Part shown: positions 2,288-8,867 of the stretch, piece after piece
Layout: the number at the start of each line of letters is the position of its first letter
Numbering within the stretch: the first letter of the stretch is position 1
Source: a bacterium
Lineage (GTDB): Bacteria; Blakebacterota; Blakebacteria; Blakebacterales; Blakebacteraceae
Assembly (NCBI GenBank): GCA_025774205.1
Contig: JALGWK010000017.1
Coordinates: forward strand, 1 to 13,049
Direction of reading: 5' to 3'
Length of the DNA stretch: 13,049 nt
The notes under the pieces: generated by a model
Database searches by the model: none
What the model was told of the DNA's origin: nothing
The model's input: the letters and a program-made list of their open reading frames with translations, nothing else
Translations under genes and position numbers: made by a program

Positions 2288-3817
2288 TCACCTGATGATC
2301 GGGGCGCTGCGACCCGCATTCCGGATATGCTCAAGGAGAACGCCCAGGCGGGCCACCACCTCCGGACGCTCCCCGTACAGGTTCCGCTTCTCCTCCAGGT
2401 CGGCGGTCATGTCGTAGAGCTGCCCGGGAGCGGGATCATCCTCTCCACCGCCGGTCCATCCGCCCGATCCCCGCCCCTCGATCATTTTCCACCGGCCGGC
2501 CCGGATCGCGAACATGCCTTCGATCGAATGGTGAATGGTCGCCTCCCTGATCGGTGACCCTCCGGCCGAACCTCTCAGGGCGGGCAGCATGTCATAGCTA
2601 TCCTCACCGGTGTCTTCCGGCAGGGTCGTGCCCGTGATCGCGGCGCAGGTCGCCATCAGATCGGTGAGGCAGAGGGTTTCATCAGATTCTGTGCCCGCCC
2701 CAATGACCTCCGGCCAGCGCGCGAGAAAGGGGATCCGGTGCCCCCCGTCCCAGACATCCGACTTGCGGCCGCGGAGATCGTCATTGGGCAGGTGATCGTA
2801 GTCGGTCATCGGCGTCATGGTGGAACCGTTGTCACTGGTGAAGATGATCAGGGTGTTCTCCGTCAGACCGTGACGGTCGAGAGCCTCAATGATCTCCCCG
2901 ACCGTTCCGTCGACCTGGGCCACAAAATCTCCGTACTCACCAGCACCACTGACGCCCCTGTACTCATCTATCGGCAGGACCGGTGTATGAGGAGCGGGAA
3001 GGGGGAAATAGAGGAAGAAGGGATCGAGCGAACGGGTTTCGGCATGGCGGTCGATCCAGGCTGTCGCCCGCTCTGTCAGCAGGGGCAGGGTCTGCTCATG
3101 ATCGAAGCCCGGCGCGGCGGGGCCGGCCCGGTAAAAGGCCAGGCCTCCCCGTCCCTCGATGCGTCCGATCCGCGGATCTGTCACCCGGTCGTTCTCGAGG
3201 TAGACATAGGGAACCATGTCGAGCGAGGCCGGTATCCCGAAGAAGTAATCGAAGCCGTGATCGCATGGCCCATCGGTCACCGGCCGACGGTAGTCAACTG
3301 TTTCCCCGGTTTCGTCCGACCGGTCACTGAACCGGTAGCCGTCGGTTGTTTGCCAACCAAGGCCGAGGTGCCACTTGCCCACGCAGGCGGTCGCGTACCC
3401 CTCATCATGCAGCAGGGAGGCCACAGTCGGTCGGCTCGGTTCGAGCAGGGGTGGGGAGTACCCCCAGAGGACATGTCCCTTAAGCCGGGTCCGCCAGCAG
3501 TAACGGCCGGTGAGCACTCCGTACCGGGTCGGCGTGCAGACGGCCGAACCGCTGTGGGCGTCGGTGAACCGCATCCCCTCCCGGGCCAGTTGGTCGAGGT
3601 GGGGGGTCGGGATCTTCGAGTCGGGATTGTTGCATCCGGGATCGCCGTACCCGAGGTCATCAGCCAGGATGAAGATGATGTTGGGCCGCTGTCCGGTCCA
3701 GGAACGCCCGCCCGCGCCGCATCCCTCCAGCAGGGCGGGGATGATTCCAGCGCCGGTAATCCCGGCGGCTCCGACACCCACCTTCTTCAGGAATTCCCGC
3801 CGGTTCCGTTCGCTCAT
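2288..3817 (-). CDS. Tat-exported type I (formylglycine) sulfatase
   Basis: A 509-residue arylsulfatase-family (S1) enzyme that hydrolyses sulfate esters, here probably from glycans, outside the cytoplasm. The N-terminus carries a twin-arginine leader (RNRREFLKK) followed by a hydrophobic stretch and LLEGC, so Cys33 may be a lipobox cysteine, though Glu at -2 is not ideal. The catalytic domain starts at RPNIIFILADD (metal ligands Asp53 and Asp54). The C-x-P-x-R signature is CTPTR, with Cys94 the residue oxidised to formylglycine. Other family motifs are PAPHTP, FTSDNGS and LRGRKSDVWDGG (Lys near 350). The start is fixed by GGAGG (CCTCC at 3825-3829 on the + strand). The length is normal. It is divergent from a GH29 fucosidase, which hints at sulfated fucose glycans, but the substrate cannot be read from sequence alone. 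A maturation enzyme must be encoded elsewhere. Confidence 0.93.
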   Translation of the reverse strand: MSERNRREFLKKVGVGAAGITGAGIIPALLEGCGAGGRSWTGQRPNIIFILADDLGYGDPGCNNPDSKIPTPHLDQLAREGMRFTDAHSGSAVCTPTRYGVLTGRYCWRTRLKGHVLWGYSPPLLEPSRPTVASLLHDEGYATACVGKWHLGLGWQTTDGYRFSDRSDETGETVDYRRPVTDGPCDHGFDYFFGIPASLDMVPYVYLENDRVTDPRIGRIEGRGGLAFYRAGPAAPGFDHEQTLPLLTERATAWIDRHAETRSLDPFFLYFPLPAPHTPVLPIDEYRGVSGAGEYGDFVAQVDGTVGEIIEALDRHGLTENTLIIFTSDNGSTMTPMTDYDHLPNDDLRGRKSDVWDGGHRIPFLARWPEVIGAGTESDETLCLTDLMATCAAITGTTLPEDTGEDSYDMLPALRGSAGGSPIREATIHHSIEGMFAIRAGRWKMIEGRGSGGWTGGGEDDPAPGQLYDMTADLEEKRNLYGERPEVVARLGVLLEHIRNAGRSAPIIR

Positions 3818-3841: not shown

Positions 3842-3907
3842 CAGGGATCAGGGCGGATTGTACCAGGGATCGGGGCGGATTGTACCAGGGATCGGGGCGG
3901 ATTGTAC
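3842..3907. repeat. Three tandem 22-bp direct repeats in a divergent promoter region
   Basis: Three head-to-tail copies occupy 3842-3863, 3864-3885 and 3886-3907. Each reads CAGGGATC, then RGGGCGG, then ATTGTAC. Copies 2 and 3 are identical and copy 1 differs only by A for G at unit position 9; a decayed fragment (CACGGCAGATC) follows. The array sits 25-90 bp upstream of the sulfatase start. On the - strand each unit contains TGGTACAAT, which resembles an extended -10 element. The 22-bp period is close to two helical turns, so repeated regulator sites are possible. Function is inferred. Confidence 0.9.
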
Positions 3908-3947
3908 CACGGCAGATCACCCTTCGCCCACTCTGCACCGGTCGGTA

Positions 3948-4014: not shown

Positions 4015-6072
4015 ATGTCCCGCTTTCGCACACTCTTCTCCTACGGAATGGTATTCATCCTCATGCTCACCATGGCGGCGTGTTCCGGCGGGGCTGGCCG
4101 GTTCGAGACCGACAAGGACCGGCGGATGGAGTGGTGGCGAGAGGCCCGCTTCGGCCTCTTCCTCCACTGGGGACTCTACTCGGTCCCGGCCGGGGAGTGG
4201 GGCGAGGATACCCATCACGCCGAATGGATTCTGACAACGGCCCAGATTCCGGTGGATACGTACGAACAATTCCTCGGAGAGTTCAATCCGGTCGAGTTCG
4301 ACGCCGACGATTGGGTGCGGATGGCGAAGGACGCCGGGATGAAGTACATCGTCATCACCTCGAAGCACCACGACGGCTTCGCGCTCTTCGATTCAGAGGT
4401 CAGCGATTACGACGTCATGGCGACTCCCTTTCAGCGGGACATCATGGCCGAACTGGCCGAGGCCTGCCGCCGTGAAGGACTGAAGATGTGCTGGTACCAT
4501 TCGATCATGGACTGGCACCACCCCGACTACCTCCCCCGGCGGGGCTGGGAGTCGAGATCGGCCGAAGGAGCCGACTTTGACCGCTACGTGGAATACCTTC
4601 GCGGGCAGGTGACCGAGCTTCTTACAAACTACGGTGATATCGGGATCATGTGGTTTGACGGGGAGTGGGAGAGCACCTGGAGCCACGACTACGGCCAGCC
4701 CCTCTACGACCTCTGCCTCGAGCTGCAGCCCGACGTGATCGTGAATAACCGGGTCGACGTGAACCGGGGCGGGATGGCCGGGATCTCCACCGATGACCGG
4801 TCGGCCGGTGACTACGGAACCCCGGAACAGCAGATCCCGGAAACAGGTCTGCCCGGCACCGATTGGGAGACATGCATGACCATGAACCGGTACTGGGGGT
4901 ACAACCGGGCCGACACCCAGTACAAGTCCACCCGTCAGCTGATACGCATGCTGGTCGACATCGCCTCGAAAGGCGGTAACTACCTGCTCAATGTCGGTCC
5001 CACGGCTGAGGGCACCTTTCCGCAGGAGAGCATCGATCGCCTGGCGGAGATCGGCGACTGGATGGATGTGAACGGAGAGGCGATCTACGGCACTTCGGCT
5101 AGTCCCCTGGCCGGGATCCCCTGGGGGCGGATCACCGTGAAGCCCTCCGGGCGGAAGACGAAACTCTACCTGCACGTCTTTGACTGGCCCGCCGACGGAA
5201 TGCTCACCCTGCCGGGGATCGGCAACGATCCGGTCCGGGCGCGCCTGCTGGCAGATCCTGGAGTACGGATCCCGATCGAACGGGTCGAGTCCGACCTGCG
5301 TCTCGCGCTGCCCGCAGGGGCGCCCGACGAAGATTGCACGGTGGTAGTGCTCGAGGTGAAGGGTGAGCCGATCGTCTACGAGGCTCCGACCATCGAAGCG
5401 GCCGCGACGATCCTGGTGAACCCGATATCGGTCTCCCTCGTGACCCGGTCGACCGCACTCGAGCTCCGTTACACCCTCGATGGTACCGTTCCGGACGCGG
5501 ATTCGAATCCGTACATCGGTCCATTCACCATCTCCTCCACGACGACGGTGAAGGCCCGGGTCTTCCATGAAGGGGAACCGGTGAGCGGTGTGACGGAGAA
5601 GTTATTCACCCGGGTTGAGCCGGCTTCTGCCCGAGAGGTCGGGAATCTCCGGGAGGGACTCAGTCTGGAGGAATATCACGGCACCTGGGAGCTCCTTCCC
5701 GACTTCGACCGGTTGCAGCGGATATCGAGACGGACGGTCGAAGACATCTCCCTGCCCGCCGATCCGACGCGGGTCGAGTATGTCGGTTACCGGTACTCAG
5801 GCTATATCGACCTCCTCCAGGATGACGTCTACCTCTTCACCCTGGTCTCCGATGACGGCTCCCGGCTCCTGCTGGATGGTGATGTCGTGGTGGACAACGA
5901 CGGTCTGCATGGATCACAGGGTCTGACGGGCACGGTCGCGCTGGCGGAGGGGATGCACGAAATATCAGTCGAGTGGTTCAATCAGACCGGGGGCGCCGAC
6001 CTCGACCTGCTCTACGCACCGGTGGGGCAGCCAGCGGCGCGGATTCCGGCTGCCATGCTCAGGCATCGCTGA
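4015..6072 (+). CDS. Exported GH29 alpha-L-fucosidase with CHB_HEX_C-like and PA14 domains
   Basis: A 685-residue retaining alpha-L-fucosidase that removes terminal fucose from glycans. The leader ends in LTMAAC, so Cys23 is a likely lipoprotein cysteine. The GH29 barrel spans about residues 30-360: EARFGLFLHWG (His51), KHHDGF, and IMWFDGEW with Asp215 as the expected nucleophile. DYGTPEQ (Glu271) and DWETCMTMNRYWGY follow; the acid/base residue varies in GH29 and I do not assign it. Residues about 360-450 form a C-terminal beta-sandwich. About 460-535 (LRYTLDGTVPD, TTTVKARVF) resembles the chitobiase C-terminal/fn3-like domain. About 545-685 is a PA14 domain (YSGYIDLLQDDVYLFTLVSDDGSRLLLDG), often carbohydrate-binding. 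The start is supported by GGAGG at 4005-4009. The divergent sulfatase suggests a sulfated fucan or fucosylated glycan as substrate (inference). Confidence 0.95.
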   Translation: MSRFRTLFSYGMVFILMLTMAACSGGAGRFETDKDRRMEWWREARFGLFLHWGLYSVPAGEWGEDTHHAEWILTTAQIPVDTYEQFLGEFNPVEFDADDWVRMAKDAGMKYIVITSKHHDGFALFDSEVSDYDVMATPFQRDIMAELAEACRREGLKMCWYHSIMDWHHPDYLPRRGWESRSAEGADFDRYVEYLRGQVTELLTNYGDIGIMWFDGEWESTWSHDYGQPLYDLCLELQPDVIVNNRVDVNRGGMAGISTDDRSAGDYGTPEQQIPETGLPGTDWETCMTMNRYWGYNRADTQYKSTRQLIRMLVDIASKGGNYLLNVGPTAEGTFPQESIDRLAEIGDWMDVNGEAIYGTSASPLAGIPWGRITVKPSGRKTKLYLHVFDWPADGMLTLPGIGNDPVRARLLADPGVRIPIERVESDLRLALPAGAPDEDCTVVVLEVKGEPIVYEAPTIEAAATILVNPISVSLVTRSTALELRYTLDGTVPDADSNPYIGPFTISSTTTVKARVFHEGEPVSGVTEKLFTRVEPASAREVGNLREGLSLEEYHGTWELLPDFDRLQRISRRTVEDISLPADPTRVEYVGYRYSGYIDLLQDDVYLFTLVSDDGSRLLLDGDVVVDNDGLHGSQGLTGTVALAEGMHEISVEWFNQTGGADLDLLYAPVGQPAARIPAAMLRHR

Positions 6073-6089: not shown

Positions 6090-7172
6090 TCAGTTCCGGC
6101 GCGGGCAGGGGGGAAGTTCAGCTTCTTCCTGATAGTCCAGAGCCCCGCATTCCAGACAGGTCACTGGATCACAGCAGGTCTTGCAGACCCGCTTGTATGA
6201 TCCGAATCTGCTGAATTCAACCTCCGGCGACAGGAATCCATCCTTCACCGGTTCTTCCCGCAGAAGATCGGTGCTGAGGTATTTCTTGTTGTCATCCGGG
6301 AAGACCGTGACCACGATCGCTTCTTCTCCTATCTCATTCTGCACCATCAGGGCACCGAGAAAATTGGCCCCCGATGATATTCCAACGCCCAGCCCCAGTT
6401 CCATAGCCAGTTTCTGGGCCATGATGATCGCGTCACCATCATCGACGATGGCGGGAATGAACTCATCGGAGATACCCTGGATGCGATGGGTCCCGATCTT
6501 GTGGCCGGTCGACAGGGTGGGTGAATTCGATGGTTCGAGCGGATGTATCTTCATCCCGGGCTGCATCTCCCTGAGATAGCGGCCGACACCCATGACGGTT
6601 CCACCGGTCCCCACTCCAGCCACGAAGGCGTCCGGCGTCAGGGAACGGAAGCGCAGCTGCCACCAGATCTCCGGACCGGTCGTCTCGTAGTGCGCATCGC
6701 AGTTGTCCTCATTGGAGAACTGACTGGGCAGAAAGGTATTCTCCCGGCTTTTGGCCAGTTCCTCGGCCTGATCGATGCTTCCGAGGAAGCCACCTTCATC
6801 CTTGCTGACGAGATTGATCTGCGCGCCGAGACTGCTGATGAGATTGATCCGTTCAGAACTCATCCAGCCGGGCATGAAGATGGCGACCGGATGTCCCATT
6901 GCCCGCCCGATCGCCGAAAAAGCGATACCGGTGTTCCCACTGGTTGCCTCAATGATGAGATCACCCGGGTGGAGTTCCCCTCTTTCGTACGACTGCCTGA
7001 TGATATGAAGAGCCATACGGTCCTTGATGCTTCCAGTGAGATTCAGGTTCTCCGCCTTGGCGTGAATCACCCTCTTTTTTCCCTGGAATGTGAACCTGAG
7101 TTCCAACAGTGGCGAGTTCCCGATCAGAGTGTTCAGTCCATTCAAACGGTGTTGGATTACAGCATCAAGCAT
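6090..7172 (-). CDS. PLP-dependent cysteine synthase-family enzyme with Cys-rich C-terminal tail
   Basis: A 360-residue cytosolic fold-type II PLP enzyme of the CysK/CysM/CBS family, which does beta-replacement on O-activated serine, for example making cysteine. Lys50 in [10 protein letters not shown] is the Schiff-base lysine; TSGNTG (77-82) binds the substrate and [12 protein letters not shown] binds the PLP phosphate. The core ends near residue 300. An extension then carries six cysteines (330, 333, 334, 339, 342, 356) arranged as CxxCC-x4-CxxC and a late Cys, which could bind zinc or an Fe-S cluster or act as a thiol switch. The start is supported by GAGGGGGG just upstream of the ATG. It converges with the fucosidase, with 17 bp between stops. 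Exact reaction uncertain: cysteine synthase, or a relative using another nucleophile. Confidence 0.85.
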
Positions 7173-8333: not shown

Positions 8334-8867
8334 CTACCTGCCGTCGTTCTGGAGTTCCTCAAGGATAGCTTCTCTGACGACTTCTTCCTCACCCTCCGTG
8401 AACCCAACCCAATGCTGCTTGATCCTGCTGTCTTTACCGATGAGGAAGCTGTTGGGATAGTAGGCGGTGTTGAACTTCGTCTCCACGAAGTTGCGATCCG
8501 CCTCAGTGAAGATGAAGGTGAGGCCGTTCTCTTCGATAAAGGTGTCGGCGCCATCCCGGTCATCGTTGATTTCGACCGCCAGCACCTGGAAATTCTCGTT
8601 CTCTTTCAGTTCCGCGTACAACTCCTGGACGTGTGGCAACTCCACACGGCAGCCCCCTCAGGTAGGGAACCAGAAGACGATCAGAGTGACCTTCTTTTCC
8701 AGGTCCTCATGGGTAAAGGTCTCCCCTTCGTAGGTGGGCAGACTGAATTCCTCGACGCTGGCACCGATCGCTCCTATTTCCTGCTCCTGCGTTCCCATGC
8801 CTGTCACCAGGAACAGGGCGGGCAGGATGATCAGAGCCAGAGCCGGACGGACACGGTTCCGTTTCAT
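8334..8867 (-). CDS. Exported TlpA/thioredoxin-like redoxin, predicted selenoprotein (UGA read as Sec70)
   Basis: I read this as one 177-residue protein with an in-frame TGA at 8658-8660 decoded as selenocysteine. Residues 1-25 are a signal peptide or anchor (MKRNR then ALALIILPALFLV). Then comes a redoxin/AhpC-TSA-like start (GASVEEFSLPTYEGETFT), strand VTLIVFWFPT, the active site U70-G-G-C73, and RVELPHVQELYAEL, the typical helix after a TlpA CxxC. AYYPNSFLIGKDSRI supplies the cis-Pro (Pro138) and a normal C-terminus follows. The TGA exactly replaces the first, nucleophilic Cys of CxxC; no other disruption exists and both halves share a frame. A SECIS-like hairpin lies directly downstream. 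Likely role: thiol-disulfide or peroxide chemistry in the periplasm. ATGAGG, 6 bp before the ATG, supports the start, and TATAAT lies upstream. The alternative is a nonsense-mutated pseudogene, which I think is much less likely. Confidence 0.88.
8625..8652 (-). promoter_or_regulatory. Bacterial SECIS-like stem-loop downstream of the Sec UGA
   Basis: In the - strand mRNA a perfect 7-bp helix pairs CGUGUGG (8648-8642) with CCACACG (8636-8630), closing the five-base loop AGUUG (8641-8637). Three more pairs (CUG 8652-8650 with CAG 8627-8625) extend it below a small internal loop. The apical loop starts 16 nt after the UGA and has G at its second position followed by U. Bacterial SECIS elements, bound by SelB, lie inside the reading frame with similar spacing and a G/U loop; the E. 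coli fdhF element has AGGUCU about 17 nt after its UGA. Confidence 0.8.
8658..8660 (-). other. Predicted selenocysteine codon (in-frame TGA)
   Basis: The + strand TCA here is TGA in the redoxin reading frame. It follows ACC (Thr69) and precedes GGG GGC TGC (Gly-Gly-Cys73), giving UxxC in place of the usual CxxC. It is the only in-frame stop in the 178-codon reading frame before the TGA or TAA-type terminus at 8334-8336. Confidence 0.87.

Follow-up and report, generated by a model that had tools for sequence, protein, structure and literature searches.

A probable selenocysteine-containing TlpA/ResA-type redoxin with a covarying SECIS hairpin in a Blakebacterota genome

The locus considered here lies on the minus strand of a 13,049-nucleotide bacterial contig, analysed over its whole length and referred to below as the window. 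Translation with table 11 yields two open reading frames in the same frame, 8867-8658 (69 aa) and 8645-8334 (103 aa), separated by a TGA. Are they the remains of a broken gene, or a single gene in which UGA is read as selenocysteine (Sec)? The second reading had been put forward in a first-pass annotation made from the letters alone, which joined the two fragments into one frame across a single TGA and placed that TGA at the first Cys of a CxxC motif in a TlpA-like redoxin. Both the joining and the placement are borne out by the analysis, and the selenoprotein reading is supported by a conserved TGA, by Sec factors of the host and by a covarying SECIS hairpin, the last of which was absent from that annotation and adds independent evidence. 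Related genes from more than one phylum share this UGA and this hairpin, which makes it most likely that the apparently broken gene is an intact selenoprotein gene. Judging from sequence, we put the probability that 8867-8334 (minus strand) encodes a Sec-containing TlpA/ResA-type redoxin at about 95%; the product would be exported or membrane-anchored. The locus comprises the following features.

8334-8867, minus strand: probable selenoprotein gene for a TlpA/ResA-type redoxin of 177 residues (ATG at 8867, TAG at 8334-8336; predicted UGA-encoded Sec at residue 70)
8796-8849, minus strand: hydrophobic N-terminal segment, residues 7-24, which probably acts as a signal peptide or as a membrane anchor (mean Kyte-Doolittle value in 15-residue stretches 2.2-2.5; model confidence low at residues 1-26)
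8658-8660, minus strand: in-frame TGA, codon 70, putatively read as selenocysteine, at the first position of UxxC (U70-G-G-C73); TGA in that column in 11/11 subfamily members, Cys in Cys homologues
8649-8651, minus strand: codon of Cys73, the predicted resolving Cys of UxxC, invariant in a six-member alignment
8630-8648, minus strand: candidate SECIS hairpin (CGUGUGG-AGUUG-CCACACG) that begins 9 nt downstream of the UGA; UGA-loop distance 16 nt

Domain identity and active site

Read from 8867 to 8334 with TGA as U, the frame gives a product of 177 residues (MKRNRVRP...VFWFPT-U70-GGCRVELPHVQ...LQNDGR), in which codon 70 is the sole internal TGA and a TAG terminates translation. Pfam matches above cut-off are AhpC-TSA (best, E 5e-15), Redoxin (second) and Thioredoxin_8. 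The best NCBIfam model is a ResA model, and the window protein reaches no curated cut-off, scoring 70.4 bits with the ResA model NF002854 (170 required) and 36.3 bits with the DsbE model TIGR00385 (123.15 required). The predicted structure, for which six Sec members served as input, is confident except at the N-terminus (mean pLDDT 83.6), and its best solved structural matches are DsbE-like and ResA proteins (3gl3, 4nmu, ResA 1st9/1su9). A sequence profile search of solved structures concurs, with ResA, DsbE and StoA at the top of the list and peroxiredoxins well below them; identity to the best solved structures is 19-26%. The CxxC redox pair of TlpA/ResA-type oxidoreductases is present as UxxC, formed by U70 and C73. 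Glu76 occupies what we take to be the place of ResA Glu80, and Pro138 presumably that of the thioredoxin cis-Pro. In the Cys homologues the first Cys of CxxC aligns with the TGA column, so that homologues carry Cys or U there, as the first-pass annotation had anticipated. The Pfam matches, the structure matches and the Cys homologues thus agree that the window gene is a TlpA/ResA-type redoxin in which TGA takes the place of the first CxxC Cys. Such a redoxin is easily missed, because table 11 splits genes of this kind and all curated NCBIfam models score this one below their cut-offs.

Comparison with known redoxins and the question of a peroxidase role

With ResA, TlpA and DsbE (CcmG) the window protein shares the thioredoxin fold, a CxxC-type site with xxE[LMF]P after it and an N-terminal hydrophobic segment, but it has a predicted Sec for the first Cys and sits below every curated NCBIfam cut-off. 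Compared by listed families and motifs, it belongs to a known kind, the UxxC TlpA/redoxin-type selenoproteins: Table 1 of PMC13188914 gives UxxC selenoproteins under PF00578, PF08534 and cd02966, plus a UGC form of TlpA, and these have fold class and UxxC site in common with the window protein. Two NCBIfam models of redoxins with Sec in the active site show detectable similarity to it, but differ in score and motif. NF041054 (WAxxUGC_long; E 5.7e-9) gives 35.7 bits vs 300 required and has UGC rather than UGGC, whereas NF053656 (redoxin_TUGYCR; E 6.9e-6) gives 26 bits vs 100 required and has UGYC. A literature search of open-licence papers found none that names the UGGC-RVELP group.

A reductase role is the one we favour, with reasonable confidence. 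That the Sec protein acts instead as a peroxiredoxin-like peroxidase, Sec70 reducing peroxides and Cys73 resolving, appears unlikely, even though Sec favours peroxidase chemistry and AhpC-TSA and Redoxin are the two best Pfam matches. A 'Prx-like thiol:disulfide oxidoreductase' with UxxC is also listed under PF00578 (PMC13188914). However, it is ResA, DsbE and StoA that lead both the sequence and the fold searches of solved structures, far ahead of peroxiredoxins, and the UxxC stands at a helix start as in TlpA/ResA. The peroxidatic site listed for peroxiredoxins is TxxC/TxxU (PMC13188914), whereas the window site is FPT-U-GG-C, a UxxC with T directly before U.

Conservation of the TGA and constraint on both sides

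Orthologues of the redoxin gene are found in a genus-mate (G001; 74% identity) and in another genus of the same family (G003; about 58% identity), and each contains exactly one TGA, in the column shared with the window gene. Among the three genes, dN/dS values, where computable, are 0.10–0.20 upstream of the TGA and 0.06–0.15 downstream, with silent sites near saturation and one downstream pair not computable. These values indicate purifying selection on both sides of the TGA. Separate translation of the two pieces, the second from an internal GTG at 8645 with the UGA as a regulatory stop, is very improbable: each piece is an open frame by itself, but the second begins after Cys73 and would be devoid of the active site and of the first strands of the fold, and both the constraint and the hairpin described below favour read-through.

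A pseudogene, or a Cys codon turned into TGA by a mistake of sequencing or assembly, would fit a TGA seen in one genome alone, and the assembly is a draft metagenome in 527 contigs. Both are extremely improbable in view of the single TGA in the same column of two other genomes, the constraint that continues beyond it and its presence in eight more distant relatives with U-GGC-xVELP, mostly Acidobacteriota. Sequencing error in particular, raised as a concern in the first-pass annotation, is very unlikely because the TGA is repeated in two separately assembled orthologues as well as in these eight relatives.

Among the distant relatives, U-GGCRVELPH occurs in three metagenome-assembled genomes, two from Holophagae and one from Acidobacteria; pattern searches yielded four further genes (L081–L084) from the phylum of the Holophagae genome, and a long protein with U-GGCTVELP in G004. 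The degenerate pattern U-G-G-C-x-V-E-L-P matched 5 of 386 spread genomes, four of the matches being redoxins whose single TGA occupies the Cys position; the reversed pattern, used as a control, gave 0 matches in the 386. The fifth match, in G305 (L071), was discarded as a chance site with many stops. Across 396 genomes of Acidobacteriota, the TGA pattern is present in six genomes and the Cys-codon pattern in one, counts that give no unbiased Sec/Cys ratio, since the patterns fix the neighbouring residues. A scan of viral contigs returned no viral copies of the gene.

Two further observations concern these genomes. In G004 (L063, G004:C35, minus strand) the U-GGC-TVELP redoxin domain is fused to a long C-terminal region ending NYPNPFNP...KVFDILGREV, which we take to resemble a type IX secretion sorting domain; the product could be a secreted or surface-bound selenoprotein. 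Redoxin frames with a TGA at the first Cys are also seen with WGDW-U-GPC in L086 (G001:C51) and WGVW-U-GSC in L087 (G003:C47), and these are probable additional UxxC selenoproteins of the related genomes.

A covarying hairpin downstream of the UGA

Published constraints on bacterial SECIS elements comprise a loop of 3–9 nt with G within its first two positions, mostly followed by G or U, an upper stem of 4–16 bp, a UGA-loop distance of 16–37 nt and an energy of at most −7.5 kcal/mol (PMC13188914). The window hairpin falls within all of them, with a 5-nt loop starting A-G-U, a 7-bp stem, a spacing of 16 nt and −10.8 kcal/mol. The alignment of 11 sequences has standard pairs in 92.2% of its pair cells, and three of the seven pairs are changed on both sides. 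The covariation score is 0.218 vs 0.085 in shuffles, and 0 of 500 shuffles reach the real score, although the alignment rows are related and the shuffle counts are not probabilities; slid partners give at most one third of the score. In the stem of G004, C-G and G-C are replaced by A-U and C-G, while in four Acidobacteriota genes a U-A pair has become C-G, with a silent Arg codon change on one side of the stem and a His-to-Arg change on the other. Six of the 11 sequences do not form the outermost pair, so the conserved core amounts to six pairs.

Codon choice within the hairpin is in keeping with such an element. In the other long genes of the window CCA makes up 5.9% of Pro codons, and TTG and TTA 1.4% each of Leu codons; the hairpin codons are CCA together with TTG or TTA in 11/11 sequences. 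A Cys homologue whose residues here are almost identical (G637; CGGCKVELP) carries CTC and CCC at the hairpin codons, and the hairpin is absent from it. Hairpin stability by itself was dropped as weak evidence: in the single window sequence it is unremarkable for composition (z −0.29), and about 22% of synonymous recodings form a hairpin of at least six pairs, against 0.035% that form a rule-meeting one of seven. Rfam at gathering thresholds gave no matches across the window, and no promoter or terminator came up when the surroundings of the gene were scanned.

Selenium machinery of the host

The host genome is a 3.09 Mb draft metagenome assembly of 527 contigs, 86% complete. Encoding of tRNA-Sec, SelA, SelB and SelD by the host serves as one criterion for a bacterial selenoprotein and had been proposed as a check in the first-pass annotation; all four are present, SelA and SelD in split form and the SelD pieces below cut-off. 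As the Rfam tRNA-Sec model gives weak matches to other tRNAs in every genome, all 14 controls included, a tRNA-Sec was called on a score over cut-off together with ARAGORN. The host tRNA-Sec, of 94 nt, scores 65.9 bits with the Rfam model and has the anticodon UCA by ARAGORN. SelB is over its cut-off, with a frame open through to the C-terminal part. SelA consists of two contig-end fragments, one of them over cut-off, and SelD of contig-end-split fragments, each below cut-off. The N-terminal SelD fragment likewise contains a TGA in frame; in G001 and G003 SelD is full-length, with one TGA each. The tRNA-Sec is over the Rfam cut-off in 7/7 Acidobacteriota genomes checked that have the TGA form (six pattern genomes and G387); the score in G388 is just 49.8 bits vs a cut-off of 47. 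The chance that the host has reassigned TGA to an ordinary amino acid is negligible, since TGA is the stop codon of all but one of the window's seven other long genes. An open frame through the TGA would also be expected under a changed code, but the genome has tRNA-Sec (UCA) and Sec factors, and homologues have Cys rather than Trp or Gly in the TGA column.

Export, proposed catalysis and subfamily

The first-pass annotation had gone on to propose an envelope selenoenzyme. Its Sec component is supported as described above, and the envelope location is likely, as suggested by the hydrophobic residues 7-24 and by the lipoprotein-like starts of two Acidobacteriota members. In the latter (L060 and L083) the redoxin domain is preceded by a long additional N-terminal stretch, and we read their starts, LVGC and LLQC, as lipoprotein-like.

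For a Sec-containing reductase the following sequence of events can be envisaged. SelB with Sec-tRNA would recognise the hairpin, which begins 9 nt downstream of codon 70, and this UGA would be decoded as Sec, a step to which the observed factors and conserved hairpin point. By analogy with the CxxC chemistry of ResA, TlpA and DsbE, Sec70 would act as the nucleophile and, within the cell envelope, attack a disulfide or an oxidised substrate, Cys73 would resolve the selenenyl-sulfide and an upstream thiol donor would re-reduce the protein. Should Sec indeed be inserted, selenium would serve these bacteria in a thiol-disulfide step of the envelope.

With somewhat less than even confidence, we suggest that the UGGC-RVELP redoxins constitute a distinct envelope selenoprotein subfamily shared by the window's small candidate lineage and Acidobacteriota, which may have spread between phyla together with its SECIS hairpin, protein and RNA constraints being coupled. 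Such coupling would be illustrated by the His-to-Arg change in the protein, which goes with the silent Arg-codon change on the opposite side of the stem. A family model could be seeded directly from the 11 sequences and their covarying hairpin, which also offer a basis for asking how one SECIS design persists across phyla.

Genomic neighbourhood

Neighbouring genes encode a peptidase M28, a sulfatase, a fucosidase, a PLP enzyme, a GFO/IDH/MocA oxidoreductase, a PAS histidine kinase and a Na+/H+ antiporter, and within the window they point to no particular substrate of the redoxin. By eye, a GFO/IDH/MocA-like oxidoreductase gene adjoins the redoxin in G001 and G003 too, with a different orientation in G003. 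The PLP-dependent (cysteine synthase-like) enzyme at 6090-7172 (minus strand) has a Cys-rich tail at its end. An alpha-L-fucosidase with a PA14 domain at 4015-6072 (plus strand) lies beside the sulfatase at 2288-3817, a pair that suggests the use of sulfated, fucose-containing polysaccharides. Between these two divergent genes, at 3842-3909, a 22-base unit is repeated in tandem, in 3.1 copies that match at 97%.
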